Shown piece by piece: positions 5,801 through 28,084 of a DNA stretch of 28,301 nt (position 1 is its first letter; each line of letters opens with the position of its first letter). The notes under the pieces are model-generated. The model was not told the origin of the DNA. It made no database searches and saw only the letters and a program-made list of their open reading frames with translations. The stretch comes from a virus. The translations under genes and the position numbers were made by a program. The stretch lies in the IMG/VR virus record IMGVR_UViG_3300020469_000197, positions 1-28,301 of that record; one strand, 5' to 3'.

Positions 5801-8800
5801 CTTTTAATAATCATGGATTCTCTGATGGTGAGTTAGTTACATATCAAGCAAGTGTTGGATTAGGATCTACAACACCACAATCCATATCTGGATTGACGAC
5901 TACAAATCAGTATAAAGTCATTAAACTTGATGATGATACTTTTAGATTATCAAATGCAGGTGTTGGTGGAACTGACAGTACTGAGTTTATTAGTAAAAAA
6001 TATGTTTCTTTCAAATCTAAAGGAACTGGATATCAATTGTTTAAATATCCTGATATAGAAATAACTATAGATGCTTTATATTCTGTATCTACATCTGATA
6101 AAATTGTTTTAACTCCAGTAGTTCAAGGAAGAATATTAGATGTATCTTTATACAATAAAGGAATGGGATATGGTAGTAAAGATATTATCAATTATGAAAA
6201 TAAACCTAATGTTGATATTAAAAATGGAACACCAAGAACTGATAAAAATATCACTCCTTCTTTGAATGCTTTAATAGTTAATGGAGAAATATCTACTGTT
6301 AATATTCAAGATGGTGGTGATGAATATTATTCAACTCCTGATTTAGAGGTTATTGGAGATGGAGTAGGTGCTAAACTAAGAGCAGTTGTTGATAGAGATG
6401 AAAATTCAGCAACATATTTAAAAATTATCAATGTTATCATTATAAATGGTGGATCTAATTACACCTTTGATGAGACAAGAATAAATGTGATTCCAAGAGG
6501 AAAAAATGCAGTATTTAATCTGTCAATTGATAAATTAAATTTAAATAATATTCAAACAATCAGACCCTATAAAGCAAAATACTCTAATCAAAAATTAATT
6601 TCTTCTAATGATAGTTTAAAATTCTCAGTTGTTGGATACTCAACTCAAATAGGAGAAAGTCAATATGGTCAATTACCTGGTAGTCACTCTCCCATAATTG
6701 GATGGGCATATGATGGAAATCCAATTTATGGTCCATTTGGATATAGTGATCCTTTGAATAGTTCATCTACTATAAAAATATTAAAAACAGGATATTCTTT
6801 AAATTCTACAATTGAAAATAGATCAGACCTATCTTTCGCTGATGGATTCTTTGCAGATGATTATTCATATACTCCATCATCTACTACAGATTTAGATGAA
6901 CATAATGGTAGATTTTGTAAAACTCCCGAATATCCAAATGGTGTTTATGCTTATTTTGTTAGTATAAACACGACAACAAAAGAACCAGAATATCCTTATT
7001 TTGTAGGACATACCTATAGATCACTACCAGAAACTTTAGATACTGAATCTACACTATCACAATCATTTGATTTTAATAATTCAAATTTAGTTAGAAATAC
7101 TTTCCCATATAAATTATCTGATGAATTTGCTGATAATGATTTTATTGTTGAATCTGACGAATTACTGACACAATTAACTAAAGTTACTGCTGTAAGTCAA
7201 GGTAAAGTAGATTCTTTAAATATTATCAAATCTGGAGACAATTATAAAATTGGTGATAATTTAACTTTTGATAATACTGATACAGATGGAAGTGGTGTTA
7301 GTGCTTCTGTTTCTAAATTGGAGGGTAAATCTATATTTAATATTGATACTTCTTATGAATCTCTAAACAATGTATCTTTTGTTTGGAAGAATCAAAACAC
7401 AGTTTCAGTATTTGTTCCGAATACACATCAATTATCAATCGGAAATAATTTAGAAGTATCTGGATTAACAACAGATATCTCATCATTAGATGGAATATCT
7501 TTATCAGGAAATAAAATAGTATCTGGTATCACTACAGAGAGTACAGTTTTATATAAACAACTTGCTTCAAACGCAACTGCTGGTGTAGTAACTGACATTT
7601 ATGTTTATCAAACAAATGTAATTTCTGTTGGTAGTAGTGTTGGAATAGGAACTGAAAAACTATTAGTTCTTAATAAATTTGATGATAGAAATATTTTAAG
7701 AGTTAAAAGAGGTGTAACTGGAACGGCACATACTCTATCATCGAAAGTAAATTTAATTCCTAGTTTCTTTGATATTAACTTTAAAACCAACTCATTTACT
7801 TCTAAGGTAGATGATATTGTTTATTTCAATCCCAGACAATCTATAGGAGTAGCAACTACAGTTGGTATATCTACAGCAATAACTGTATCTGTTGGAGATA
7901 CTTCAAGACAAGTATCTATTCCAGCACAAAGCATATATTTACCAAATCATCCATTTAAAACTGGACAATCAGTTACTTTTAGTAGAGGTTCTGGAGGATC
8001 AGCTATTTCTGTTTCTAGAGATGGATCAGTGGGTCAACAATTTAGTTTGCCATTATCAGGAACTAGTCAAGATGTATTCGTTATTAATAAATCTAAAGAT
8101 TATATTGGAATTGTAACTCAAGTTGGGTTGACAACAACTAATGGATTATTCTTTAGAACTAATGGGGATAATTATTTTGATTATTCAATTGAATCTAATT
8201 TCACACAAGTAACTGGAAATTTAGAAAGAATAAATTCAAAAGTTACTTTAACAACATCTCATAGTTTACTTGCGGGAGATATTGTTAGTTTAAATGTAAA
8301 ACCAAACCAATCAGTTGGTATTGGAACTTCTGTTTCTGCTAGAGTTAAGTATAATACTTTAACTGATAGTTTGTTGATAAATGAAATTGGATTTAATTCT
8401 GGAATTAATACAACTACAAATACAATAACTTTAAATTCTCATGAATTAAATACTGGGGATAAAGTTTATTATGATGCCGTAGAGGTAGCTAGTGGATTAG
8501 AAACTGGAGGTTATTTCGTTTATAAAATTAGTGATAATGAAATAAAATTATCAGAAACTTTATATAATTCTAAGATCATACCACCAAAAGTTGTAAATCT
8601 AGTGTCCATCGGTGCAACACATACACTATCTTTAATTAATCCTCCAATTTCAGTTACAAGGAACAATAATTTAGTTTTTGATATATCAGATTCATCTTTA
8701 TCTGGTTTTGAGTTTAAAATATATCAAGATCAAAATTTTGATAATGATTTTGTTTCTACAGGAGCAACAACAACTAATGTTGTTTCTACTTCTGGGACAA

Positions 8801-16909: not shown

Positions 16910-19900
16910 ATGTCACAAAAAACTAATTTAAATATAAGTCCTTATTATGACGATTTCAATAAGGACAATAATTTTTATAAAGTATTGTTTAGGCCAGGTA
17001 GACCTGTTCAAGCTAGAGAATTATCAACTCTTCAATCAATACTTCAAAATCAAGTAGAGTCTTTTGGGTCACATGTATTCAAAGAAGGATCTATGGTTCT
17101 TCCTGGTGGTGTTTTCTTTGATGATTCATATTTTTCAGTAAAGGTAGAATCTGATCATCTTGGTCTTCCAATATCTCTTTATAGTACTAATCTAAAAGGT
17201 AAAAAATTAAAAGGACAAAATTCTGGAGTAGAAATTCTAGTTAATGATGTTAAATTCCCAACAGATTCTACAGATATTACAGATCCAACATTCTTTATAA
17301 AATATCTTACAGGAAATACAGATAATGAAATATCCAATTTAGAGGATGGTGAACCTCTAATTGCGTTAGAAAATATAACTTATGGTAATACAACTATATC
17401 TACTGGGGAGAGCGTTGCTTCATTGATACCCTCAAACGCTTCTGCGGTGGGTAGTGCAGTAAAAATGAATGCTGGTGTATATTTTATTAGAGGGGCGTTT
17501 GTGGACGTTTCTGCGGATACTATAGTATTGGATCCATATTCAAATCAACCATCATATAGAGTTGGTTTGAATGTATTAGAATCCATTATTACCGCAAAAG
17601 ATGATTCATCTTTATATGATAATGCAAAGGGATTCTCTAACTTTGCAGCACCTGGTGCTGATAGGTTTAAAATAACTACAACTTTAGCAAAGAAAGGTTT
17701 AACTGATACAAGTGATGTTAATTTTGTTGAATTAATTAAATTAAGAGAAGGAGAACTTAAAAAGTTACAGGATTTTTCTGTATATAATGAATTAGAAAAA
17801 TATTTGGCTGCTAGAACATTTGAAGAATCTGGAAACTATTCCTTAGATAATTTTAAAATTAATCTATCAGAATCTTTAGATAATGGTCTTTCAAATGGTG
17901 GAATCTTTAAATCTAATCAAGTTACTGAAGATGGTAATACTCCATCAGATGATTTAGCTTGCGTTGAAATAAGTGCAGGTAAAGCATATGTAAAAGGTTT
18001 TCGTATTAATGAACCTGGAACTTCAATCATAGATTTTGATAAACCAAGAGATACTGACGGTGTAAATACTGCTTTGGTTCCTTTTGATATGGGAACTTTA
18101 ATTCGTGTTGATAATGTATCAGGAACACCTGTTATAGGTACGAATATTGAAACAAATACAGTTTCTCTTTATAGTAGAAGAAAAACTGCATCTACAGCAG
18201 ATGCACCACCTACAGGTGGATATGAGATAGGAAAGGCAAGAGTATATTCATTTGGATTAAGAAATACACCATATGTTGATAATGCTAGTCAATGGAACTT
18301 GCATTTATTTGATGTTCAGACATATACATATTTAACATTAAATACTGCATTAACTGCAAGCGTTACTTCTTTTGTTAGAGGTGCTCGTAGTGGTGCAACA
18401 GGATTTATTAATGCTACAGTTTCTGCAAAAACTGAAATAATTTTATCACAAACTTCTGGATCATTTATTCCTGGTGAAAAAATAATTATTAATGAATTAG
18501 AAGAATCAACCAGAACTATATCATCAGTAAGACAGTATACTTTTGAAGATGTAAAATCTGTATATCAAAATACAAATGGAATGTTTAATGGAATAAGTGG
18601 TTTTATTGATTTTAGTGCTGATACTGTACTTGAAACTACTAGAATATCATCATTAGCATCTAATAATAATACAATTATTACAACTTCGGGAGTTACTGCT
18701 GGTTTATCAACTGGAACAATAGTATCACCAGGAAATGCATTTACTGGTATAAAAACAGATTCAATTGTTCAGTATCAGGTTGCAGGTAGAAATGATATAA
18801 CATTTACTAGAGTCTCTGATATTAGTTCAGATTTAAAGACTTTAAATGTTGTTGGTGTTACGACTGTTTCTGGTGTAAATGAAGGTGAACTTGGAACTGG
18901 GGGAACTGGTATCTCTACATCAATTTCAATATCTTTAGCATCTCCAGTTGTTGTAGATAAAGAAAATACTGGATTGTATGCCAAGTTAGATCGTAGTAAT
19001 GTATCTGAAGTTAATTTAGCAAATTCTACATTATCAGTTTCTGCTCAATCTGCTATGTTTACATTGTCTGCTAATTCTACTACACAGGCAGTTCCTTCTG
19101 GAATAACTAGTGCATTCTATAGTAATTTTGATACACAAAAGTATTCATTGATTTATAGTGATGGAAGTGTAGAACCATTAACAAGAGATCAGTTTAAATT
19201 AGTAGATGCTAGTTCAAAGGTTCAGTTTAGTGGATTATCAAAAACTAATCCTACAAAAGCTGTTCTTAATGTAACTGTAGAAAAACAAGCAATTACAAAT
19301 AAAACTAAAGAATACATAAGAAGCAATCAAATAGTTATTAATAAAACTAGTGCAGGTGTATCAACCTCAACAAATGGTTTGACTAAAAATAATTTCTATG
19401 GATTAAGAATAGAAGATAGAGAAATATCATTAAATGTTCCAGATGTTGCAAATGTAATTTCAATATTAGAATCTAAGGATAGTATTGATCCAACTCTTGA
19501 TAAGATAACAACCATATCGGGACTATCTTTAAATACAAATTCTGTTGTTGGTGAAAAAATTATTGGTGCTGAAAGTGGAGCAGTTGCTCAGATAGTTAAT
19601 AGAGTAGATGATGCAAATGTTGAAGTTGTTTATTTTACAAATGTTCAATTTGTTTTAGGTGAATTAATAAGATTTCAAGAATCAAATATTGAAACTACTG
19701 TTCAAGCAATAACACTTGGAAATAATGTGAATATTACCGAGAGATATTCTCTAGATAAAGGACAAAGAGAACAGTTCTACGATTATTCTAGAATAGTTAG
19801 AAAGAGAAATGCTACTCCTCCCTCTAGGAGAGTTTTAGTAGTATATGATTCATATAAAGTTCCTACTACAGATTCTGGTGATATATTTACTGTAAATTCT

Positions 19901-22900
19901 TATGATAAAGATAGATTTAGTAATGATATACCACTATTAGCTAACAATGTAAGAGCAACAGATGTTCTTGATTTTAGACCAAGAGTTAGTGAATATATTG
20001 GTGTTTCTTCTTCACCATTTGCCTTTACTTCAAGAGATTTTTCTGGTTCTGGGTCAACATCTTCTCTTGTAGTTTCTCCAGAGGGGGATTCTACATTAGG
20101 ATATAATTATTATTTACCAAGAATTGATAAATTAGTTTTATCGGCTGGAAAAGATTATGAAGGTGATTTTGCAGTAATTAAGGGAGTATCATCTCTCACA
20201 CCAAGAGCACCAGCATTGAATGATGGTGCAATGCATCTTGCAACTATTGAACTTCCAGCATATCTCTATAATGCAAATGAAGCAAAGATTACTCTAATTG
20301 ATAATAAGAGATATACCATGAGAGATATTGGTAGATTGGAAGATAGAATAGAAAATTTAGAGGTAATTACAAGTTTAAGTTTGCTTGAATTAGATACTAA
20401 AACTTTACAAGTTAAAGATATAACTGGTGATAGGTTTAAATCTGGATTCTTTGTAGATGACTTTAAAGACAATCAACGTCTTGATTTACAAAATCAAGAT
20501 AATACTGTTAATGTTGATGTAATCAATCAAGAAATGGTTGTTCCCATTAATTTATATTCTGTAAAACCACAATTAGGTGTAGATGATACTGTCACTTTAC
20601 TTTCTGCTGATTTTTCTCAAAATTTACCCTTATTAGATTCTAATGTTCAAAAAACTGGAGATCTAATTACTTTAGCATACAGTGAAGTAGAGTCTGATAT
20701 TGGTAATCCTCAGGCAAGTAGAGTTGAAAATGTTAACCCATATGAAGTTGTTGTTCGTATTGGTCAGGTATTGTTGAATCCTTCACAAGATAACTGGACA
20801 AGAGATGTAGAAATTGATGGTGGAACATTTACTCGTGTTGGAGACAATGCAGGAACAGTAGTTGATAGAGTACAAACTGGATCAGTTCCAATAGAATTTA
20901 TTAGATCGAGGAATGTTGGATTCTCTGCATACTCATTAACACCTGGTGTTAGGCATTATTCATTCTTTGAAGGAAGGAGTGGTATTGATATAATTCCAAA
21001 ATTAATTGAAATTGCTATGGTTTCTGGAACATTTAGTATTGGTGAAACTATAACAGGTTCAATAGGACAAGGTGAACAACTAGTTTCATTTAGAACTGCT
21101 CAACCAAATCATAAAACAGGAACATATACTGCACCTACTTCAGTATTTCCAAGTAACCCATATGACACCTCATTAACATTAGGAACTGCTTATAGTGAAT
21201 CTTCTACAGTTTTAAATGTAGATATTGCATCTTTAACAGAAGATGCTCAAGGTTCTTTCTTTGGTAGAGTTGCAACTGGAATGAGACTTGTTGGTGGAAC
21301 TAGTGGTGCTATCGCAACAATATCAAATGTAAGATTAGTTCCAGATTCATTCGGAGCTTTATATGGATCATTCTTCTTTAGAGATCCAACAGTTTCTCCA
21401 CCACCACCTTTAAGATTTAATAATGGAACAACCACATTTAGATTAACTTCAGATGTAAATAATGCTACTGCATTACCAGGAGATGAGGCAAGTATAACCA
21501 GTGGAAATGCTAACTATTCTACTTCAGGATCAATAAATCAGTTTACTACAACCACAACTATAACTCGTCTTCCACCTCCACCAGCTCCAAGAAGAGACCC
21601 ATTAGCACAATCATTTACTGTAGATGAAACAGGAATGTTCCTATCATCGTTAGATTTATATTTTGCAGAAAAAGATGATCAAATACCAGTAACAGTTCAA
21701 ATAAGAACTGTTGAGTTAGGAACCCCAACAGGTCAAGTGGTTAATGATTTTGCAGAAGTTGTAATAGATCCAACAGTATTGGATGCTAATGGAAATTCAG
21801 TTATAAAAACATCTACAGATGCATCATTGGCAACTAGAGTTACTTTCCCATCTCCAATCTATTTGGAACCAGATAGAGAGTATGCAATAGTTATTCTAGC
21901 ACCAGCAACAATAAAATATAAAGTCTGGATCGCTCAAATGAGTGAGGAAACTATTGAAACACAAACTCTTGGTGTTGATCAGGGTTCAAAAAATATAGTT
22001 CAAAAACAGTATCTAGGTGGAAGTTTATTCAAATCTCAAAATGGTACTATCTGGACAGCAACTCAAACTCAAGATTTGAAATTTAGTCTTTACAAGTGTT
22101 CTTTCACAACAACACCTGGTTCACTTACATTATTTAATTCTGAGTTATCAACTAATGATAAAATTAACTTTAGATTACAGGATAATGCATTAAAAACTTA
22201 TCCAAGAAAATTAAAAGTTGGTATTGATACTACAGCAGCTCTTTCTAGCATTATTACTACAGGTGTAAAAGTTACTGCTTCAAATGTTGGATCAGCATAT
22301 AATACATCTCAAGATGCTAAGGGATTTGTTGAGAAAATTGGTTCTCCAATAACTACTGGTTCTGTAACAACAGTTGGAACTGGTTATTCAACAGGAACAT
22401 ATTCAAATGTTCCTTTATACTCAATTACTGGTGATGGAACGGGAGTTATAGCGACTGTAAGTGCCTTTGGAGGAGGTATTACAACTGTAACTATAGGATC
22501 AACAGGTAATGGATATGTTGTAGGAGATGCTTTAGGATTTACTACTGCATCTATCGGAAATGCTGGTAGTGGTGGTGAATATACAGTTTCTACTGTTTTT
22601 GGAATAGACACATTATTCCTTACCAATGTTCAAGGTGAAAAATTCAACAATGGACGTAAGTTAGCATACTATACTAATGTTTCTACAGGAACTATATCAG
22701 CAACACCAGGTAATGTTCCTGTAAGAGGAGACTCAACAGTTAATGGTGATTTATACACTGGAAATATTCTTGAGGTTAGTAATTATAACCATTCTATGAA
22801 ATCTACTGACAATGTAGTTCAACTTGATAATATTTCTCCAGATACTATTCCACAACTTTTAACAGCAAATCTTAGTGCAACAGATACTACAATTTCTGTT

Positions 22901-24094
22901 GCAAATACATCACCATTTGCTACATTTGAGGGTATATCAACCAGCACTGGTTATGTAAAAATTGGTCAAGAAATAATTTTCTATGATGGTATATCGACAG
23001 GAAATTTAAGTATAGGTACCAGAGGTATTAGTAACACCCCAATAGATGCTCATTCAATAAATGATCAAGCATTTAAATATGAATTTAATGGGGTATCTCT
23101 AACTGGAATTAATACTACACATAGTATGCCAACAAATGCTACTCTACAATCTCTAAAGACTGTGGATTCATATTTCTTAGAAATTGCTAGGGGAGCAGGA
23201 AGACCTAATTTATTAGACAGGTCAACTGGTATAAATCAAATTAGTTTCACCACTGAAAAATTTGGTGGTGGTAATATCGCTGTTGGATCACAAAATTTCC
23301 AATATGATGCATTTATTCCAGCAATCAATACATTTACACCTTCAACAGCAACTACAATATCATCACAATTGAGATCAGTTTCTGGAACAAGTGAAGGTGG
23401 ATCTGAGATATCATTTGTAGATCAGGGATATGAAAGTGTAGAATTTAATGAAATCAATCAACTATCTACACCAAGACTTTTATGCTCTAAGGTTGATGAG
23501 AATGCTAAATTAACTAATCTACCTAGAAACAGATCAGTGACTCTATTGACAAGATTTGAGACTACGGATACTAACCTATCACCAGTTTTAGATCTAATGA
23601 ATGGTTCGTTTAGATTTGTAAGAAACAGATTAAACAACCCAGTATCCGATTATGCTACTGACTCTAGATCAAATAGAATATCTGGAGATCCTCATGCTGC
23701 ATGTTACATTTCACAGAAAGTTGATTTAAAACAAGCATCTACATCATTAAAAGTATTGGTGGCTGCATATAGAGATTCAACAGCAGACTTTAGAGTATTG
23801 TATAGGTTATTTAAAACCGATTCAAGTGAAGTGGAACAATCTTATGAATTGTTCCCTGGTTATGATAATCTAAAGGATGTTGGTATCGACAAACAAATTG
23901 TAGATCCAAAATTGAATAATGGAAGACCAGATACTTTCGTTCCTGCAAGTGTGGAAAACGAATTTAGAGAGTATGAATTTACTATTGATAACTTAGATGA
24001 ATTTGTAGGTTTCCAAATTAAAATTGTAATTAGTGGAACAAACGAAGCAACTCCTCCAAGATTTAAAGATCTAAGAGCAATTGCTTTAGCATAA
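16910..24094 (+). CDS. Very large DUF4815-type virion protein, likely baseplate periphery or fibre
   Basis: The protein has 2394 residues. Its N-terminus (NISPYYDDFNKDNNFYKVLF, then RPVQARELSTLQSILQNQVE, then GSHVFKEGSMVLPGG) is the opening of the DUF4815 family found in T4-like marine phages. Further features are a VLDFRPRV segment near 1020, a charged helix at about 1129-1160 (YTMRDIGRLEDRIENLE), the RSRNVGFSAYSLTPG...FFEG strand motif near 1329 common in phage fibre proteins, a proline-rich linker (RLPPPPAPRRDP, about 1553-1564), and an all-beta block after it (AQSFTVDETGMFLSSLDLYF). Near 1820-1880 are two GxGY repeats, near 1990-2060 an IGxE-type module, and the last 140 residues look like a jelly-roll. 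It occupies the slot of T4 genes 9-12, so a role in the baseplate rim or receptor contact is inferred. It lies three bases after gp8 and overlaps the next gene by one base. The reading frame is intact throughout. Confidence 0.82.
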   Translation: MSQKTNLNISPYYDDFNKDNNFYKVLFRPGRPVQARELSTLQSILQNQVESFGSHVFKEGSMVLPGGVFFDDSYFSVKVESDHLGLPISLYSTNLKGKKLKGQNSGVEILVNDVKFPTDSTDITDPTFFIKYLTGNTDNEISNLEDGEPLIALENITYGNTTISTGESVASLIPSNASAVGSAVKMNAGVYFIRGAFVDVSADTIVLDPYSNQPSYRVGLNVLESIITAKDDSSLYDNAKGFSNFAAPGADRFKITTTLAKKGLTDTSDVNFVELIKLREGELKKLQDFSVYNELEKYLAARTFEESGNYSLDNFKINLSESLDNGLSNGGIFKSNQVTEDGNTPSDDLACVEISAGKAYVKGFRINEPGTSIIDFDKPRDTDGVNTALVPFDMGTLIRVDNVSGTPVIGTNIETNTVSLYSRRKTASTADAPPTGGYEIGKARVYSFGLRNTPYVDNASQWNLHLFDVQTYTYLTLNTALTASVTSFVRGARSGATGFINATVSAKTEIILSQTSGSFIPGEKIIINELEESTRTISSVRQYTFEDVKSVYQNTNGMFNGISGFIDFSADTVLETTRISSLASNNNTIITTSGVTAGLSTGTIVSPGNAFTGIKTDSIVQYQVAGRNDITFTRVSDISSDLKTLNVVGVTTVSGVNEGELGTGGTGISTSISISLASPVVVDKENTGLYAKLDRSNVSEVNLANSTLSVSAQSAMFTLSANSTTQAVPSGITSAFYSNFDTQKYSLIYSDGSVEPLTRDQFKLVDASSKVQFSGLSKTNPTKAVLNVTVEKQAITNKTKEYIRSNQIVINKTSAGVSTSTNGLTKNNFYGLRIEDREISLNVPDVANVISILESKDSIDPTLDKITTISGLSLNTNSVVGEKIIGAESGAVAQIVNRVDDANVEVVYFTNVQFVLGELIRFQESNIETTVQAITLGNNVNITERYSLDKGQREQFYDYSRIVRKRNATPPSRRVLVVYDSYKVPTTDSGDIFTVNSYDKDRFSNDIPLLANNVRATDVLDFRPRVSEYIGVSSSPFAFTSRDFSGSGSTSSLVVSPEGDSTLGYNYYLPRIDKLVLSAGKDYEGDFAVIKGVSSLTPRAPALNDGAMHLATIELPAYLYNANEAKITLIDNKRYTMRDIGRLEDRIENLEVITSLSLLELDTKTLQVKDITGDRFKSGFFVDDFKDNQRLDLQNQDNTVNVDVINQEMVVPINLYSVKPQLGVDDTVTLLSADFSQNLPLLDSNVQKTGDLITLAYSEVESDIGNPQASRVENVNPYEVVVRIGQVLLNPSQDNWTRDVEIDGGTFTRVGDNAGTVVDRVQTGSVPIEFIRSRNVGFSAYSLTPGVRHYSFFEGRSGIDIIPKLIEIAMVSGTFSIGETITGSIGQGEQLVSFRTAQPNHKTGTYTAPTSVFPSNPYDTSLTLGTAYSESSTVLNVDIASLTEDAQGSFFGRVATGMRLVGGTSGAIATISNVRLVPDSFGALYGSFFFRDPTVSPPPPLRFNNGTTTFRLTSDVNNATALPGDEASITSGNANYSTSGSINQFTTTTTITRLPPPPAPRRDPLAQSFTVDETGMFLSSLDLYFAEKDDQIPVTVQIRTVELGTPTGQVVNDFAEVVIDPTVLDANGNSVIKTSTDASLATRVTFPSPIYLEPDREYAIVILAPATIKYKVWIAQMSEETIETQTLGVDQGSKNIVQKQYLGGSLFKSQNGTIWTATQTQDLKFSLYKCSFTTTPGSLTLFNSELSTNDKINFRLQDNALKTYPRKLKVGIDTTAALSSIITTGVKVTASNVGSAYNTSQDAKGFVEKIGSPITTGSVTTVGTGYSTGTYSNVPLYSITGDGTGVIATVSAFGGGITTVTIGSTGNGYVVGDALGFTTASIGNAGSGGEYTVSTVFGIDTLFLTNVQGEKFNNGRKLAYYTNVSTGTISATPGNVPVRGDSTVNGDLYTGNILEVSNYNHSMKSTDNVVQLDNISPDTIPQLLTANLSATDTTISVANTSPFATFEGISTSTGYVKIGQEIIFYDGISTGNLSIGTRGISNTPIDAHSINDQAFKYEFNGVSLTGINTTHSMPTNATLQSLKTVDSYFLEIARGAGRPNLLDRSTGINQISFTTEKFGGGNIAVGSQNFQYDAFIPAINTFTPSTATTISSQLRSVSGTSEGGSEISFVDQGYESVEFNEINQLSTPRLLCSKVDENAKLTNLPRNRSVTLLTRFETTDTNLSPVLDLMNGSFRFVRNRLNNPVSDYATDSRSNRISGDPHAACYISQKVDLKQASTSLKVLVAAYRDSTADFRVLYRLFKTDSSEVEQSYELFPGYDNLKDVGIDKQIVDPKLNNGRPDTFVPASVENEFREYEFTIDNLDEFVGFQIKIVISGTNEATPPRFKDLRAIALA

Positions 24095-24291
24095 TGATAC
24101 CAGTTCAAGGACATAAACATCTCTATAGAGATGAAAACTCAGGTGCTATTGTGAATAACGATTCTCAAGGTTATTCACAATATATTGCAATGAGAGATAA
24201 GAAAATAACTGAGGAACAAGAACTTAAAAGATTGAGATCTGATATTGATGAAATAAAAACTCTATTAAAAGAAGTGTTAAATAAATCATGA
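24094..24291 (+). CDS. Small coiled-coil protein downstream of the DUF4815 gene
   Basis: This 65-residue protein starts in a TAATG overlap with the stop codon of the preceding giant gene, so translation is probably coupled; there is no separate Shine-Dalgarno sequence. The N-terminal half (GHKHLYRDENSGAIVNNDSQ, then GYSQYIAMRDKK) is conserved-looking and unstructured. The C-terminal half, from about residue 38, is a predicted helix with heptad-like spacing (EEQELKRLRSDIDEIKTLLK). Similar small proteins with a YRDENSGAI motif occur in T4-like cyanophages, by my recollection as virion-associated or hypothetical proteins. The tight coupling suggests a partner or chaperone of the 2394-residue protein; this is inference. 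Short length does not count against it, since codon use and context fit a real gene. Confidence 0.75.
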   Translation: MIPVQGHKHLYRDENSGAIVNNDSQGYSQYIAMRDKKITEEQELKRLRSDIDEIKTLLKEVLNKS

Positions 24292-24302
24292 AATGGTGGT
24301 CA

Positions 24303-24310
24303 TATAAATA
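24303..24310 (+). promoter_or_regulatory. T4-type late promoter for the fibre and neck genes
   Basis: An exact TATAAATA octamer lies in the 41-base gap between the 65-residue gene and the next ATG, ending 22 bases before it. Its spacing to the start codon is like that of the gp8 promoter. It would drive the group running into gp13, gp14 and gp15. Confidence 0.75.
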
Positions 24311-24332: not shown

Positions 24333-24671
24333 ATGGCAGTATATGTATCCAATATAGTGATTGAACAAGGTTTTGACTTTGATACATCCTTTCAATTAGA
24401 GGATACTAGAACTAATGCATTTTTAGATTTAACTGGATCTAATACTGAAGGTCAAATAAGAAAGTCCTCTGGCAGTACCAGTAAAGTAGCATTTGCTACC
24501 ACAGTATCAGATCCTGATACTGGTATTATTACAGTTTCATTAGGATCTACTATAACTGTTAATATGAAACCTGGAAGATACGTTTATGATGTAAAAATAA
24601 TAACTTCTGGCGGCAAAGAATTTAAAGCCATAGAAGGTTCAGCTTTAGTTAGAGGCGGGGTAACAAGGTAA
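24333..24671 (+). CDS. Small beta-sandwich virion protein, BppU-like N-terminal fold (tentative)
   Basis: This 112-residue all-beta protein has a recognisable order of strands: GFDFDTSFQLEDTRTNAFLD, then LTGSNTEGQIRKSSGS, then DTGIITVSLGS, then MKPGRYVYDVKI, then GGKEFKAIEGSALVRGG. The pattern 'DLTG...ir...GiitvsL...pG.Y.yDv....G....eG' is shared with N-terminal domains of phage upper-baseplate (BppU-type) and fibre proteins, which attach receptor-binding parts to the baseplate. There is no signal peptide and no Cys. It begins just after a late promoter, and its stop codon overlaps the next ATG by one base (TAATG), so it and the fibre-like protein are probably made together. I infer a small attachment or adaptor subunit. 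The fold assignment is by pattern only. Confidence 0.7.
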   Translation: MAVYVSNIVIEQGFDFDTSFQLEDTRTNAFLDLTGSNTEGQIRKSSGSTSKVAFATTVSDPDTGIITVSLGSTITVNMKPGRYVYDVKIITSGGKEFKAIEGSALVRGGVTR

Positions 24672-25789
24672 TGCCAAGTATAAACGATAGAATTGGCTCA
24701 CAAAATGTAATACGAGTATTATCTAATGCGTCGGCACCTCCGACAAAATTAGTTAATATGAATGATGTTGATACTTCTAGAGAAGGTGAAAATGGATTAG
24801 TTTTAGTATGGAATTCAGATTCTAAAAAATTTATATTAACTGATAAAGTTCAAGCTACGACATTAATACAAACTGGAATTTCATCACTTTCAAATACTAC
24901 TAATTCATCTAGTGCTACTACTGGAGCATTGACTGTAGCAGGTGGAGTTGGAATATCTAAGAATTTAACTTTAGGTGCTGGTTTTGTTGCAGCAGGTATA
25001 GCAACATTTACATCAAATATTGATGCTAATGCCTCTATAGATGTTTTTAGAGATTTAAGAGTAGGTAATAATCTTAGTGTTACTGGATTAACAACATTTA
25101 CAGGAATAACCACCACTGTTGGTGATTTGTATGTTGGTGGTGATTTATATCTTCAAGATGATCTAGTATTAGATAATATCACTGGTTCTAGTCTTAAAAT
25201 AACTGGCATCAGCACTGTCGCACAATTAACTGCAACAAGTGTTACTACAACTGGTAATGTTAATATTTCTGGTATTACAACACTTGCTGGTAGTGGAGGA
25301 ATAACAACCACTGGTGGTGATTTATATGTTGGTGGTGATTTGTATGTTGGCGACGATTTAACATTTGATGAATTTGTTGCTAGATTAGGAACAGTTAATC
25401 AACAACTTACAGCAGCACAATTAAATGTAACTGGTGTTACTACATTTCAGAATAATGTTTCTCTACTAGATAATGATAAATTAACTTTTGGTGGTTCTGC
25501 ACTTGGTGCGACTGGATCATTGCACATATATCATGATGGATCTAATGGATATATTGATGATGTTGCTATTGGTAACTTAATATTAAGAGCTTCTGGATTT
25601 ACTTTTTATACGCCAAGTAATGAATCAATAATTACAGGATCACCTAATGCAGATGTTAAATTGTTCTATAATAATGTAAATCGAGTTGAGACTACTAATT
25701 ATGGTGCAAAAGTAACTGGTATCTTAAGTGCTACTAGCATAACTGCTGATAATATAACACTAGATTCAATTGATGGAGGAACGTATTAA
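24671..25789 (+). CDS. Fibre-like virion protein in the position of T4 wac (fibritin)
   Basis: The protein has 372 residues. The N-terminal 60 (PSINDRIGSQNVIRVLSNAS, then LVLVWNSDSKKFILTD) look like an attachment domain. A low-complexity Gly/Thr/Ile/Val region follows, with a 65-residue duplication around GDLYVGGDLY at residues 151 and 216. Further on come LHIYHDGSNGYIDD (from about 284), NLILRASGFTFY, and VKLFYNNVNRVETTNYGAKV, a set of strands common to fibre proteins of marine T4-like phages. Its place directly before gp13 is that of wac in T4, but I see neither the fibritin coiled coil nor a foldon, so it is a positional analogue at most. It may be a neck whisker, a short fibre or another adhesin. 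An AAGG ends two bases ahead of its ATG, and TAATG coupling to the upstream gene is likely. Confidence 0.78.
   Translation: MPSINDRIGSQNVIRVLSNASAPPTKLVNMNDVDTSREGENGLVLVWNSDSKKFILTDKVQATTLIQTGISSLSNTTNSSSATTGALTVAGGVGISKNLTLGAGFVAAGIATFTSNIDANASIDVFRDLRVGNNLSVTGLTTFTGITTTVGDLYVGGDLYLQDDLVLDNITGSSLKITGISTVAQLTATSVTTTGNVNISGITTLAGSGGITTTGGDLYVGGDLYVGDDLTFDEFVARLGTVNQQLTAAQLNVTGVTTFQNNVSLLDNDKLTFGGSALGATGSLHIYHDGSNGYIDDVAIGNLILRASGFTFYTPSNESIITGSPNADVKLFYNNVNRVETTNYGAKVTGILSATSITADNITLDSIDGGTY
25121..25380 (+). repeat. 65-residue direct repeat in the fibre-like gene
   Basis: Codons for GDLYVGGDLY begin at 25121 and again at 25316, 195 bases apart and in frame. Both are followed by a D-D-L segment (LQDDLVLDNI and VGDDLTFDEF) and preceded by GIT/T-rich strands. 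The two copies are similar at the DNA level as well, so the duplication is fairly recent or under constraint. Confidence 0.7.
25775..25780 (+). promoter_or_regulatory. Strong ribosome binding site for gp13
   Basis: GGAGGA ends nine bases before the gp13 ATG, within the last codons of the fibre-like gene. It is the best Shine-Dalgarno match I noticed at any gene start here and supports 25790 as the start. Confidence 0.65.
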
Positions 25790-26647
25790 ATGGCAAAACC
25801 AAGTACTAGACAGGGTTTAATTGATTATTGTTTAAGACAATTAGGAGCACCCGTATTAGAAATTAACGTTGACGATGAGCAAATAGATGATTTAGTTGAT
25901 GATGCTATTCAATTCTTTAATGAAAGACATTTTGATGGTGTCGAAAGAATGTATCTAAAATATAAATTAACGCAAGATGATATCGATAGAGGAACTGCAA
26001 ATAATAAAACAGATAGTGATAATACAGTTGGTATAGTTACAACAACAGGAACTTCTACAAATGTAAGTGGACTAGGAACAGTTACTTCTAATTTTTACGA
26101 GACATCCAATTTTATTCAAGTTCCAGATTCAGTTACAGGTATTGAAAAAATATTTAAATTTGACTCTAGTTCAATTTCTAGTGGAATGTTTAGTATTAAA
26201 TATCAATTATTTTTAAATGATTTGTATAGTTTTAATTCTGTTCAATTAATGCAATATTCAATGACTAAAACATATCTTGAAGATATTGAGTTTTTACTAT
26301 CAACAGATAAGCAAATAAGATTTAATAGAAGACAAGGAAGATTATATTTAGATATTGATTGGGGAAATGAAAGTAAAGATACATTTTTTGTAATTGATTG
26401 TTATAGAGCTCTAGATCCTGCAACGTTCACTCAAGCATTTAACGATAGTTTTTTAAAAAAATATCTAACAATATTAATTAAAAGACAGTGGGGTTTAAAT
26501 ATGATGAAATTTACTGGGACTAAACTTCCTGGTGGTATTGAATTAAATGGAAGACAGTATTATGAAGATGCTGAAAGAGAATTAGAGGATATTAAACAAA
26601 GAATGTCATTAGAATATGAATTACCACCTCTTGATCTCATAGGTTAA
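25790..26647 (+). CDS. gp13: Neck protein gp13
   Basis: This 285-residue protein belongs to the T4 gp13 family (309 residues in T4). gp13 and gp14 form the neck that closes the filled head and allows the tail to join. Recognised features are the N-terminal block MAKPSTRQGLIDYCLRQLGA, then the acidic DDEQIDDLVDDAIQFFNERH helix, an IQVPDSVTGI segment, the strand and helix YSMTKTYLEDIEFLLSTDKQ, and the C-terminal helical part with LTILIKRQWGLNMMKFTG and LPGGIELNGRQYYEDAERE. A short Thr/Ser/Gly-rich insert lies near residues 75-100. The ATG directly follows the TAA of the fibre-like gene and has a good Shine-Dalgarno sequence. gp14 follows after six bases, the order seen in T4. Assignment is firm. 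Confidence 0.92.
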   Translation: MAKPSTRQGLIDYCLRQLGAPVLEINVDDEQIDDLVDDAIQFFNERHFDGVERMYLKYKLTQDDIDRGTANNKTDSDNTVGIVTTTGTSTNVSGLGTVTSNFYETSNFIQVPDSVTGIEKIFKFDSSSISSGMFSIKYQLFLNDLYSFNSVQLMQYSMTKTYLEDIEFLLSTDKQIRFNRRQGRLYLDIDWGNESKDTFFVIDCYRALDPATFTQAFNDSFLKKYLTILIKRQWGLNMMKFTGTKLPGGIELNGRQYYEDAERELEDIKQRMSLEYELPPLDLIG

Positions 26648-26653
26648 TATAAC

Positions 26654-28084
26654 ATGGCTTTAAATTCATACTTTTTACAGGGATCCAAAAACGAACAGTT
26701 TTTGATGCAGGACTTGGTTAATGAACAGTTAACCATTTATGGTATAGAGGTATATTATCTTCCTAGAAAAGTATTTAAAACTGATAATATTATTAGAGAA
26801 GTCCAATCATCTAAATTTGATGATTCTTTTTTAATTGAAGCATATTTGAATAACTATGAGGGATATAATCCAAATAGCGATTTAATGACTAAATTTGGTT
26901 TGAGATTGACAAATGAAGTTAGTCTTACTATTTCAAGGGAAAGATTTGAAGAATTTATAGCACCATTTTTAGAAGGTATGAGTTCTGGAATTAGGGATGG
27001 TACAATTACAGAATATACTTTTGAGGATTTAATTACTAGACCTAAAGAAGGAGATTTAGTATATTTTCCACTTGGTGAAAGATTATTTGAAATTAAAAGA
27101 GTTGAATCTGAAAAACCATTCTACCAATTAAATAAAAATTATGTTTATGAATTGAATTGTGAATTGTATGAATATGAAAATGAACTTATTGATACTACTA
27201 TTGAAGAGGTAGATAATACGGTTGAAGATGAGGGATATATTACTACTGTAAATTTAGTTGGATCTGCTACAACTGCATCTGGAACTGCAAGCATTGGTCT
27301 TTCAGGAATGATTGGGTTTATAGATTTGATAGATGATGGATCTGGATATGTATCTACTCCAACAGTTCAAATATCACCACCAACATCAGGAACTCAAGCT
27401 ACAGCAGTTGCGATCACTACTTCAAAGGCTGGTGTAAAATCAATAAAAGAAATTTTATTAACCAATCCTGGTTCAGGATATAATAGTGCAAGTCCACCGT
27501 TAGTTATCTTAAATGGTGGTGGTGGAGTAGGTGCTGCAGTTACTATTGGTGTTGTTAATAATGGACTTAGTGGTGTAACAATATCACAAGCTGGAGTTGG
27601 TTATGCTACAGAACCAACAATTACATTTACTGGTGCTACTGGTGTTGGTGGAACGACTGCTAATGCTCAAACGGTTATTAGTGATGGTGCTATTACAGCA
27701 GTTCGATTCTCAAATGCTGGTGCTGGATATACAGTTGCACCTACAGTTACTTTTGCTGGTATAAGCACAACTGGAATTGGAACATTTATATTTAATGAAA
27801 CTGTTCATGGTCAAACTTCTGGTGTTGTTGCAAGAGTTAAGGACTTCAAGAAGAGAACTGATATCAGTCCTGAAAATCCACCAGTTGAACTTAGAGTATC
27901 TCTAAATAGTGGAGCATTCCGTGCTGGTGAGGTTCTAGTTGGTTCTATATCATCTGCTAGATACATTGTAGATAGTTACGATACTGATAGTTTTGAGGAT
28001 CCATTTGATGCAAATAGTGATATAGAAACTGAGGCAGATAACTTACTTGACTTTACAGAAGGCAACCCATTTGGAGATTATTGA
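26654..28084 (+). CDS. gp14: Neck protein gp14 with a GxGY-repeat C-terminal extension
   Basis: Residues 1-185 match T4 gp14: GIEVYYLPRKVF (30-41), EAYLNNYEGY (62-71), TNEVSLTISRERFEEFI (86-102), and RPKEGDLVYFPLGERLFEIK (129-148) followed by KPFYQLNKNYVYEL. T4 gp14 has 256 residues and this protein has 476. The extra part has four GxGY repeats starting at residues 229, 273, 314 and 356 (period 41-44), each followed by P-x-V/I strands and a Gly/Ala-rich turn. Next comes a GQTSGVVARVKDF...SGAFRAGEVLVGSISSA module (387-435). The acidic tail (DIETEADNLLDFTEGNPFGD) resembles the gp14 C-terminus. By my recollection cyanophage gp14 proteins carry similar extensions. It forms the neck with gp13. The final base of its stop codon is the first base of the gp15 start. 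Confidence 0.92.
   Translation: MALNSYFLQGSKNEQFLMQDLVNEQLTIYGIEVYYLPRKVFKTDNIIREVQSSKFDDSFLIEAYLNNYEGYNPNSDLMTKFGLRLTNEVSLTISRERFEEFIAPFLEGMSSGIRDGTITEYTFEDLITRPKEGDLVYFPLGERLFEIKRVESEKPFYQLNKNYVYELNCELYEYENELIDTTIEEVDNTVEDEGYITTVNLVGSATTASGTASIGLSGMIGFIDLIDDGSGYVSTPTVQISPPTSGTQATAVAITTSKAGVKSIKEILLTNPGSGYNSASPPLVILNGGGGVGAAVTIGVVNNGLSGVTISQAGVGYATEPTITFTGATGVGGTTANAQTVISDGAITAVRFSNAGAGYTVAPTVTFAGISTTGIGTFIFNETVHGQTSGVVARVKDFKKRTDISPENPPVELRVSLNSGAFRAGEVLVGSISSARYIVDSYDTDSFEDPFDANSDIETEADNLLDFTEGNPFGDY
27320..27780 (+). repeat. Four GxGY repeats in gp14, period about 42 residues
   Basis: The four motif copies begin at bases 27338 (GSGY), 27470 (GSGY), 27593 (GVGY) and 27719 (GAGY), so spacings are 132, 123 and 126 bases. 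Each unit reads roughly GxGY, xxxPxVxI, a Gly/Ala-rich turn and a hydrophobic strand, as in a beta-solenoid or stacked beta-hairpin repeat. DNA identity between units is limited. Confidence 0.8.
28073..28076 (+). promoter_or_regulatory. Ribosome binding site for gp15
   Basis: GGAG lies seven bases before the ATG at 28084, inside the last codons of gp14. It fixes the start of gp15 in the TGATG overlap. Confidence 0.5.

Follow-up and report, generated by a model that had tools for sequence, protein, structure and literature searches.

In a T4-type marine phage, the two genes that precede the neck gene gp13, here called A and B, probably encode a two-part lateral-fibre assembly, a transplant that would do in a T4-type virion what the LtfC-Ltf system does in T5-type phages. 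Profile searches and a structure model show A to be homologous to LtfC (p132), the collar protein of T5 and DT57C and an Ig-like beta-sandwich. Given that A has the LtfC/p132 fold and that anchoring fibres is the job of LtfC, the reading of A as an adaptor is well supported. B has conserved ends and a variable middle, and the pair is probably an exchangeable host-contact fibre mounted at the T4 whisker site or on the tail.

The stretch we analysed (the window) is an IMG/VR viral record of 28,301 bp that covers the baseplate-to-neck region of the phage, in the order gp25, gp6, a 4111-aa ORF, gp8, a 2394-aa DUF4815 protein, a 65-aa virion protein, A, B, gp13 and gp14. The closest named relative of the A-B pair is Marine virus AG-345-L05 (Kyanoviridae), with 93.9% DNA identity over the full pair. 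The features of the locus are as follows.

16910..24094, + strand: 2394-aa DUF4815/VrlC-type protein, a neighbour conserved with A in 85/88 loci (PF16075 E 2.3e-59; PDB 9euf E 3.9e-38)
24094..24291, + strand: 65-aa virion protein (phrog_473, by PHROG match), upstream and outside the unit, 5' of A in 85/88 eligible loci
24303..24310, + strand: predicted T4-type late promoter TATAAATA of the A-B-gp13 unit, 30 nt 5' of A
24333..24671, + strand: A, predicted LtfC/p132-type Ig-like collar adaptor, 112 aa (PHROG 3304, profile, model)
24669..24673, + strand: TAATG stop/start overlap from A to B (TAA 24669-24671, ATG 24671-24673)
24671..25789, + strand: B, putative modular fibre, 372 aa, phrog_13853 N-terminal family (E 5.7e-15)
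24671..24853, + strand: B residues 1-61, conserved N-terminal module and proposed docking segment (alignment; profile 88.6 bits)
25103..25165, + strand: shaft repeat copy 1, residues 145-165, with GDLYVGGDLY (self-match of B)
25298..25360, + strand: shaft repeat copy 2, residues 210-230, with GDLYVGGDLY (self-match of B)
25463..25735, + strand: B residues 265-355, better-modelled beta domain near the C-terminus, possible tip (block pLDDT ~66-81)
25769..25786, + strand: B C-terminal tag IDGGTY, whose GATGGAGGA codons contain GGAGG (25775-25779), Shine-Dalgarno-like, for gp13 (tag count, codon bias)
25790..26647, + strand: gp13 neck protein, next gene in the unit (phrog_211 E 3e-46; T4 gp13 in PDB E 3.7e-14)

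An earlier sequence-only reading had described the two frames, their TAATG junction and their place directly before gp13, and all three are present; the start at 25790 is the base directly after the B stop, and the gene is a true gp13. It had also given the pair a late promoter of its own. Of the 90 loci with enough upstream sequence, 82 have the motif ATAAATA in the 60 nt before A, against 0.43% of control 60-mers (n = 14,854), and none of 91 loci has it before B, so that the pair has its own single late promoter. The gene in the position of B starts exactly 1 nt inside the stop of A in 78 of 91 loci, with a 4-nt overlap in 5 more; the TAATG junction is thus not a chance arrangement, and the T5 ltfC and ltf frames are likewise joined by TAATG. 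One promoter for the pair is what is seen, and A and B are presumably coupled in translation as well. The viral-contig loci in these counts were the top 80 among at least 580 relatives, a sample that is therefore biased towards the window, and owing to near-duplicate loci (e.g., L026/L028, L049/L050 and L082/L083) the counts do not represent independent events. On the + strand of the window, late-promoter motifs NATAAATA occur at 482, 2782, 15225, 16804 and 24303, and those at 482, 15225 and 24303 lie ~30-35 nt 5' of ORF starts.

The homology of A is best seen with profiles. A matches PHROG 3304, named 'L-shaped tail fiber protein assembly', at E 4e-30 and the Pfam family LtfC (PF23926) at E 6e-4 with 20.7 bits, below a curated cut-off of 27 bits that is a curator's threshold and not a biological feature; a single-sequence phmmer comparison with T5 p132 is weak (E 1.2). 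The A3 profile, built from 46 sequences (A of the window and 45 of the 80 viral-contig loci), finds T5 p132 at E 2.1e-5 and DT57C LtfC at E 3.4e-5 with hmmsearch, and nothing else scores better than 0.3. PF23926 is matched by 27 of the 46 A relatives at E<=0.01, the best at 9.1e-7. When the A3 profile was run on whole genomes, matches appeared in 8 of 11 records, the sole match in T5 being LtfC (2.1e-4); no homologue of A was detected by this profile in T4, in the Syn9-type phage Syn10 or in Caulobacter phage Cr30. The AlphaFold2 model of A is confident (pLDDT 92.7, pTM 0.82), and its best solved counterparts are DT57C LtfC (Z 12.3, rmsd 2.4 Å) and T5 p132 (Z 12.2, 2.5 Å), over 111 residues, followed at a distance of 2 units by the next entry (Z 10.1). 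Lower matches include BppU-type chains of TP901-1 and 80alpha (Z 8.9-9.0) and neck proteins of Bas63 and Sf14. The sequence-only reading had called A BppU-like, which is consistent with this fold, since the T5 authors, in the text of theirs available to us, link p132 to the BppU N-terminal domain (PMC10038345). The BppU N-terminal domain shares with A a similar Ig-like fold and the anchoring of a fibre or receptor-binding protein, but its structural similarity to A is lower than that of LtfC, and BppU is larger and multi-domain.

At E<=1e-3, relatives of A occur in 123 phage records, most of them from Synechococcus and Prochlorococcus phages, and at least 580 IMG/VR stretches encode one, which shows homologues of p132 to be frequent among marine phages of the T4 type. 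In the available part of their report, the T5 authors describe the LtfC-type collar as a landmark of T5-like phages only (PMC10038345). PHROGs and some RefSeq records already label A relatives as LtfC, which makes the homology a known one at the level of annotation. A literature search found no paper on LtfC-type proteins in cyanophages, and the available text of the S-SM1 study does not name the A cluster T4-GC 211. Three loci, in Bellamy and two viral contigs, carry A without a following B, and phrog_13853 was not found elsewhere in these three records; this means that A must have a role or partner besides B. Several A relatives are built or placed differently. The protein of ACG-2014f (L006:5995-6528) has a ~65-residue C-terminal extension absent from A of the window. 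In P-SSM2 (L012:4992-5582, 6185-6532) two LtfC-like genes flank a 198-aa protein, and this pair adjoins a halogenase gene, at a distance from the genes annotated as structural. In Streptomyces phage Wakanda (L010:7929-10035) the LtfC-like protein overlaps a 320-aa lectin-like, collagen-like protein and its gene lies between capsid and head-tail adaptor genes, an adaptor-plus-adhesin layout in a phage of another family.

The second protein is defined by its N-terminus. B of the window matches the phrog_13853 profile (E 5.7e-15), and so does the B protein of S-SKS1 (2e-78). PHROG 13853, previously without an assigned function, is the family of this N-terminal part, which would here be a fixed frame that receives fibre modules; its ~60 residues recur in proteins that range from 72-75 aa (S-T4, L064) up to the 372 aa of the window. 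The first complete ORF after A measures 66-1020 aa (n = 87), and those that bear the C-terminal tag discussed below measure 66-879 aa. The reading of the pair as an adaptor with its fibre stands for A and needs qualification for B, which is frequently a protein of only 66-91 aa and then not a fibre, and which the three loci mentioned above do not have. The repeat in B was described as a 65-residue duplication; what is found is a 21-residue match (residues 145-165 versus 210-230) at a spacing of 65 residues, with a score of 66 against at most 30 in 300 shuffles. GDLYVGGDLY does occur in both copies, at residues 151-160 and 216-225. It occurs in B relatives of other lengths too, and by its sequence it is one unit of a shaft repeat rather than a special duplication. 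The model of B is poor (pLDDT 60, pTM 0.30) and holds no helical segment beyond 3 residues; residues 265-355 resemble other marine phage fibres in sequence. The fold search with this model gave no match at E<=0.001 (T4 gp34, at E 1.1, is not meaningful), and the B profile found nothing up to E 1 among solved structures. A sequence relationship to T5 Ltf is unsupported, as the profile of the B N-terminus does not match T5 Ltf, and in the low-confidence model no long helix follows the N-terminus, unlike in LtfA, where a long trimeric helix comes after the strand-donating docking segment. Neither the architecture of B nor its end tag nor the shared operon layout was found described in our literature search.

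B shares with T4 fibritin (wac) the place directly before gp13 and a fibrous character. It is nevertheless not fibritin: no Fibritin_C domain (PF07921) was found in the scanned window proteins, and B shows beta repeats and has, or requires, an adaptor partner. The fibritin C-terminal domain is absent from all 14 distinct marine records searched, with the T4 positive control scoring, so that the search for clear wac homology returned none. A segmented alpha-helical coiled coil, which the sequence-only reading had not seen in B either, is likewise rejected, because the model, poor as it is, contains no helix of four or more residues and the repeats in the sequence are of beta type. The same reading had placed B in the whisker position. 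This is correct for the window, but the position is not a fixed one, as the pair lies far from gp13 in P-HM1 and S-CAM1. In P-HM1, where A is elsewhere, the slot before gp13 holds another protein of 1832 aa (L112:15817-21315), and in Syn10, which lacks A, it holds a 1779-aa fibre-type protein (L096:1647-6986).

Between loci, the middle of B is conserved less than its surroundings. We compared 36 loci with a B of at least 200 aa, the tag and a complete gp13, among which 35 pairs have A proteins that are at least 80% identical. Mean identity in these pairs is 0.92 for A, 0.88 for gp13, 0.89 for the B N-terminus and 0.80 for the last 12 residues of B, against 0.50 for its middle. In the pair L024 and L026, for example, gp13 is identical after rounding and A is 97% identical, and the B middle is 58% identical. 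Some shaft stretches match other cyanophages at ~83-85% DNA identity, which fits exchange. From these alignments, the middle of B behaves like an exchangeable cassette between fixed ends that varies in both length and sequence. The partner of A can also differ: in S-SSM7 and S-CAM1 a protein of PHROG 10330 (virion structural protein) takes the place of B after A, with the 1-nt overlap kept.

A short B is often followed by another fibre gene. In 14 of 16 examined loci the short B precedes a separate fibre of 550-1700 aa with a different N-terminus, which belongs to phrog_15769 in L064 and P-HM1; in L052 and L053, the remaining two, no separate fibre was resolved. In three-gene loci (L064:4807-5058, L065:8507-8719, L067:8267-8476 and similar ones) the separate fibre is followed by a charged, heptad-like protein of 60-84 aa, which, from its size and look, we take to be a possible gp57A-type fibre chaperone.

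The fixed C-terminal end of B has the form [DN]GGx[YF]. This tag ends 80 of the 87 complete first ORFs after A; the search pattern itself required D/N and Y/F, and the count leaves out three loci without B and four in which B is cut by the contig end. The seven without it are from HTVC008M, Wakanda, S-SCSM2R, P-SSM2, S-SSM7, L037 (EGGSF) and L091 (YDAGTF). In an alignment of 19 B sequences IDGG is invariant. The separate second fibre family ends in the tag in 13 of 14 loci, and in Melnitz-2 the tag lies one residue from the end. In 12 named phage genomes, 12 places were hit by a degenerate DNA pattern that encodes the tag and a stop, compared with 4 for the reversed control pattern; 2 of the 12 end in TGG and not in a stop, and 8 of the other 10 lie at the A-B locus. 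The codons of the tag also appear to carry the Shine-Dalgarno sequence GGAGG of the next gene, a conclusion supported by codon usage: the first Gly codon is GGA or GGG in 78 of 80 tags but in only 55 of 298 first codons of internal Gly-Gly pairs. This bias, together with the observation that gp13 mostly starts directly after the tag, could mean that the motif is merely a Shine-Dalgarno sequence for gp13 and no protein signal at all. We consider this unlikely. The bias is consistent with GGAGG, but it does not explain why all 80 tags close with Tyr or Phe, encoded by four codons, nor the Asp or Asn at position 1, again through four codons; separate fibres that lie as much as ~60 nt before the next gene carry the tag at their ends, too.

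As to the site of A-B on the virion, we give the neck about an even chance and the tail or baseplate just short of one. The pair may be a neck whisker analogue, with A as a ring on the gp13/gp14 neck and B in place of fibritin, serving fibre assembly or sensing and not host binding; in this full form the proposal falls somewhat below even. A stands before gp13, directly or with other fibre genes in between, in 75 of 94 distinct loci (76 of 95 with L001, the window's own copy, which is left out of the locus counts), and 10 of the 19 loci without this adjacency extend no more than 2 kb past A. T4 gp13 is, in the available text on its structure, a dodecamer that holds fibritin, which matches the 12-fold ring of LtfC (PMC12270204). 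The next-best structural matches of A include the neck proteins of Bas63 and Sf14, and two-part neck whiskers exist in Sf14, according to the part of that study at hand (PMC11821841). The Sf14 whiskers (gp30/gp31) resemble A-B as a two-protein neck appendage of which one neck chain matches the fold of A (Z 9.1), but their gene context differs and the likeness in the fold of one chain does not imply homology. The position of the Wakanda gene and the lack of wac in the records searched also favour the neck. However, gene order is a weak guide to location, and 85 of 88 eligible loci have DUF4815 and phrog_473 in front of A. Moreover, A and gp13 lie ~30 kb apart in P-HM1 and, by coordinate comparison, ~29 kb apart in S-CAM1, and in both A remains with the baseplate-type DUF4815 gene or phrog_473, so that the neck site is not established; in P-HM1, furthermore, the slot before gp13 is filled by the 1832-aa protein.

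This loyalty of A to DUF4815 or phrog_473 is what one would expect if A linked B to the baseplate (e.g., to DUF4815 or a gp10-type platform) as a short tail fibre that replaces gp11/gp12, a possibility that we take seriously while rating it as rather short of even. The T4 genes for gp11 and gp12 occupy the same slot, and T5 LtfC itself is located at the tail tip, as far as the available accounts go (PMC10038345, PMC10713586). The shaft repeats of B resemble proteins that PHROGs label as baseplate wedge, but these labels stem from shared low-complexity repeats. A-B-gp13 forms one transcription unit in most loci, which speaks against the baseplate. Furthermore, a contractile tail would bury the ring of the tail tube around which LtfC lies in T5. 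Alternatively, A might help to assemble B and then be absent from the finished virion, as the name 'L-shaped tail fiber protein assembly' in PHROGs and RefSeq would have it and as its small, single-domain form and its coupling to B would allow. This is improbable, because the closest solved homologues of A are integral virion ring proteins in the available descriptions and because A is kept in three loci that have no B to assemble.

Under the reading that we prefer, a two-part lateral-fibre assembly of LtfC-Ltf type, the late promoter would drive an A-B-gp13-gp14 message, and adaptor and fibre would be produced jointly, through translation coupled at the TAATG junctions. In T5-type phages, as far as the published descriptions available to us show, LtfC surrounds a tail-tube-like ring at the tail tip as a collar of twelve copies, and the fibre N-termini thread this collar and add beta-strands to the LtfC sheets (PMC10038345, PMC10713586). 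By analogy, A would assemble, probably as 12 copies, into a ring that encircles an axial ring of the virion, and the N-terminal module of B would dock into A, probably adding beta-strands to its sheets as LtfA does in DT57C. The repeats of B may then form a trimeric beta-shaft, the exchangeable middle, to judge from its variability, would touch the host or the environment, and the tag could be an element of the fibre end that serves capping or addresses a chaperone or distal partner. As the model of B is poor, docking, oligomeric state and host binding are steps that we infer. The likeness to LtfC/p132 (PF23926, PHROG 3304) consists of profile homology, an Ig-like fold over 111 residues in a small single-domain protein, and an adaptor gene directly before the fibre gene. 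The differences are that the virion of A is that of a T4-type contractile-tail phage, that the 12-mer is proposed for A by analogy, that its partner fibre is unrelated in sequence to Ltf, and that it adjoins neck and DUF4815 genes and not pb4/pb3.

The A-B pair links fibre-mounting parts of two unrelated tail types, those of a T5 siphophage and a T4 myophage. For most host-contact proteins of T4-type cyanophages and pelagiphages, which are very abundant viruses in the sea, no assignment exists, and a recognisable adaptor next to a fibre with fixed ends and a variable middle provides a handle to search for host-contact fibres in metagenomes. As a tentative generalisation, which we think is more likely wrong than right, LtfC-type collars could be a widespread mount of exchangeable fibres in marine T4-type viruses, and all such fibres, from two unrelated N-terminal families, could share a C-terminal code [ILVF][DN]GGx[YF]-COOH that a common distal adhesin or chaperone reads, allowing shafts and tips to be swapped freely between two fixed ends.

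The neck gene after gp13 is itself enlarged in the window. gp14 (26654-28084) measures 476 aa compared with 256 aa in T4, and its residues ~200-370 consist of GSGY..PTV-type repeats common to other virion-protein PHROGs, which suggests an inserted repeat domain in a neck protein.
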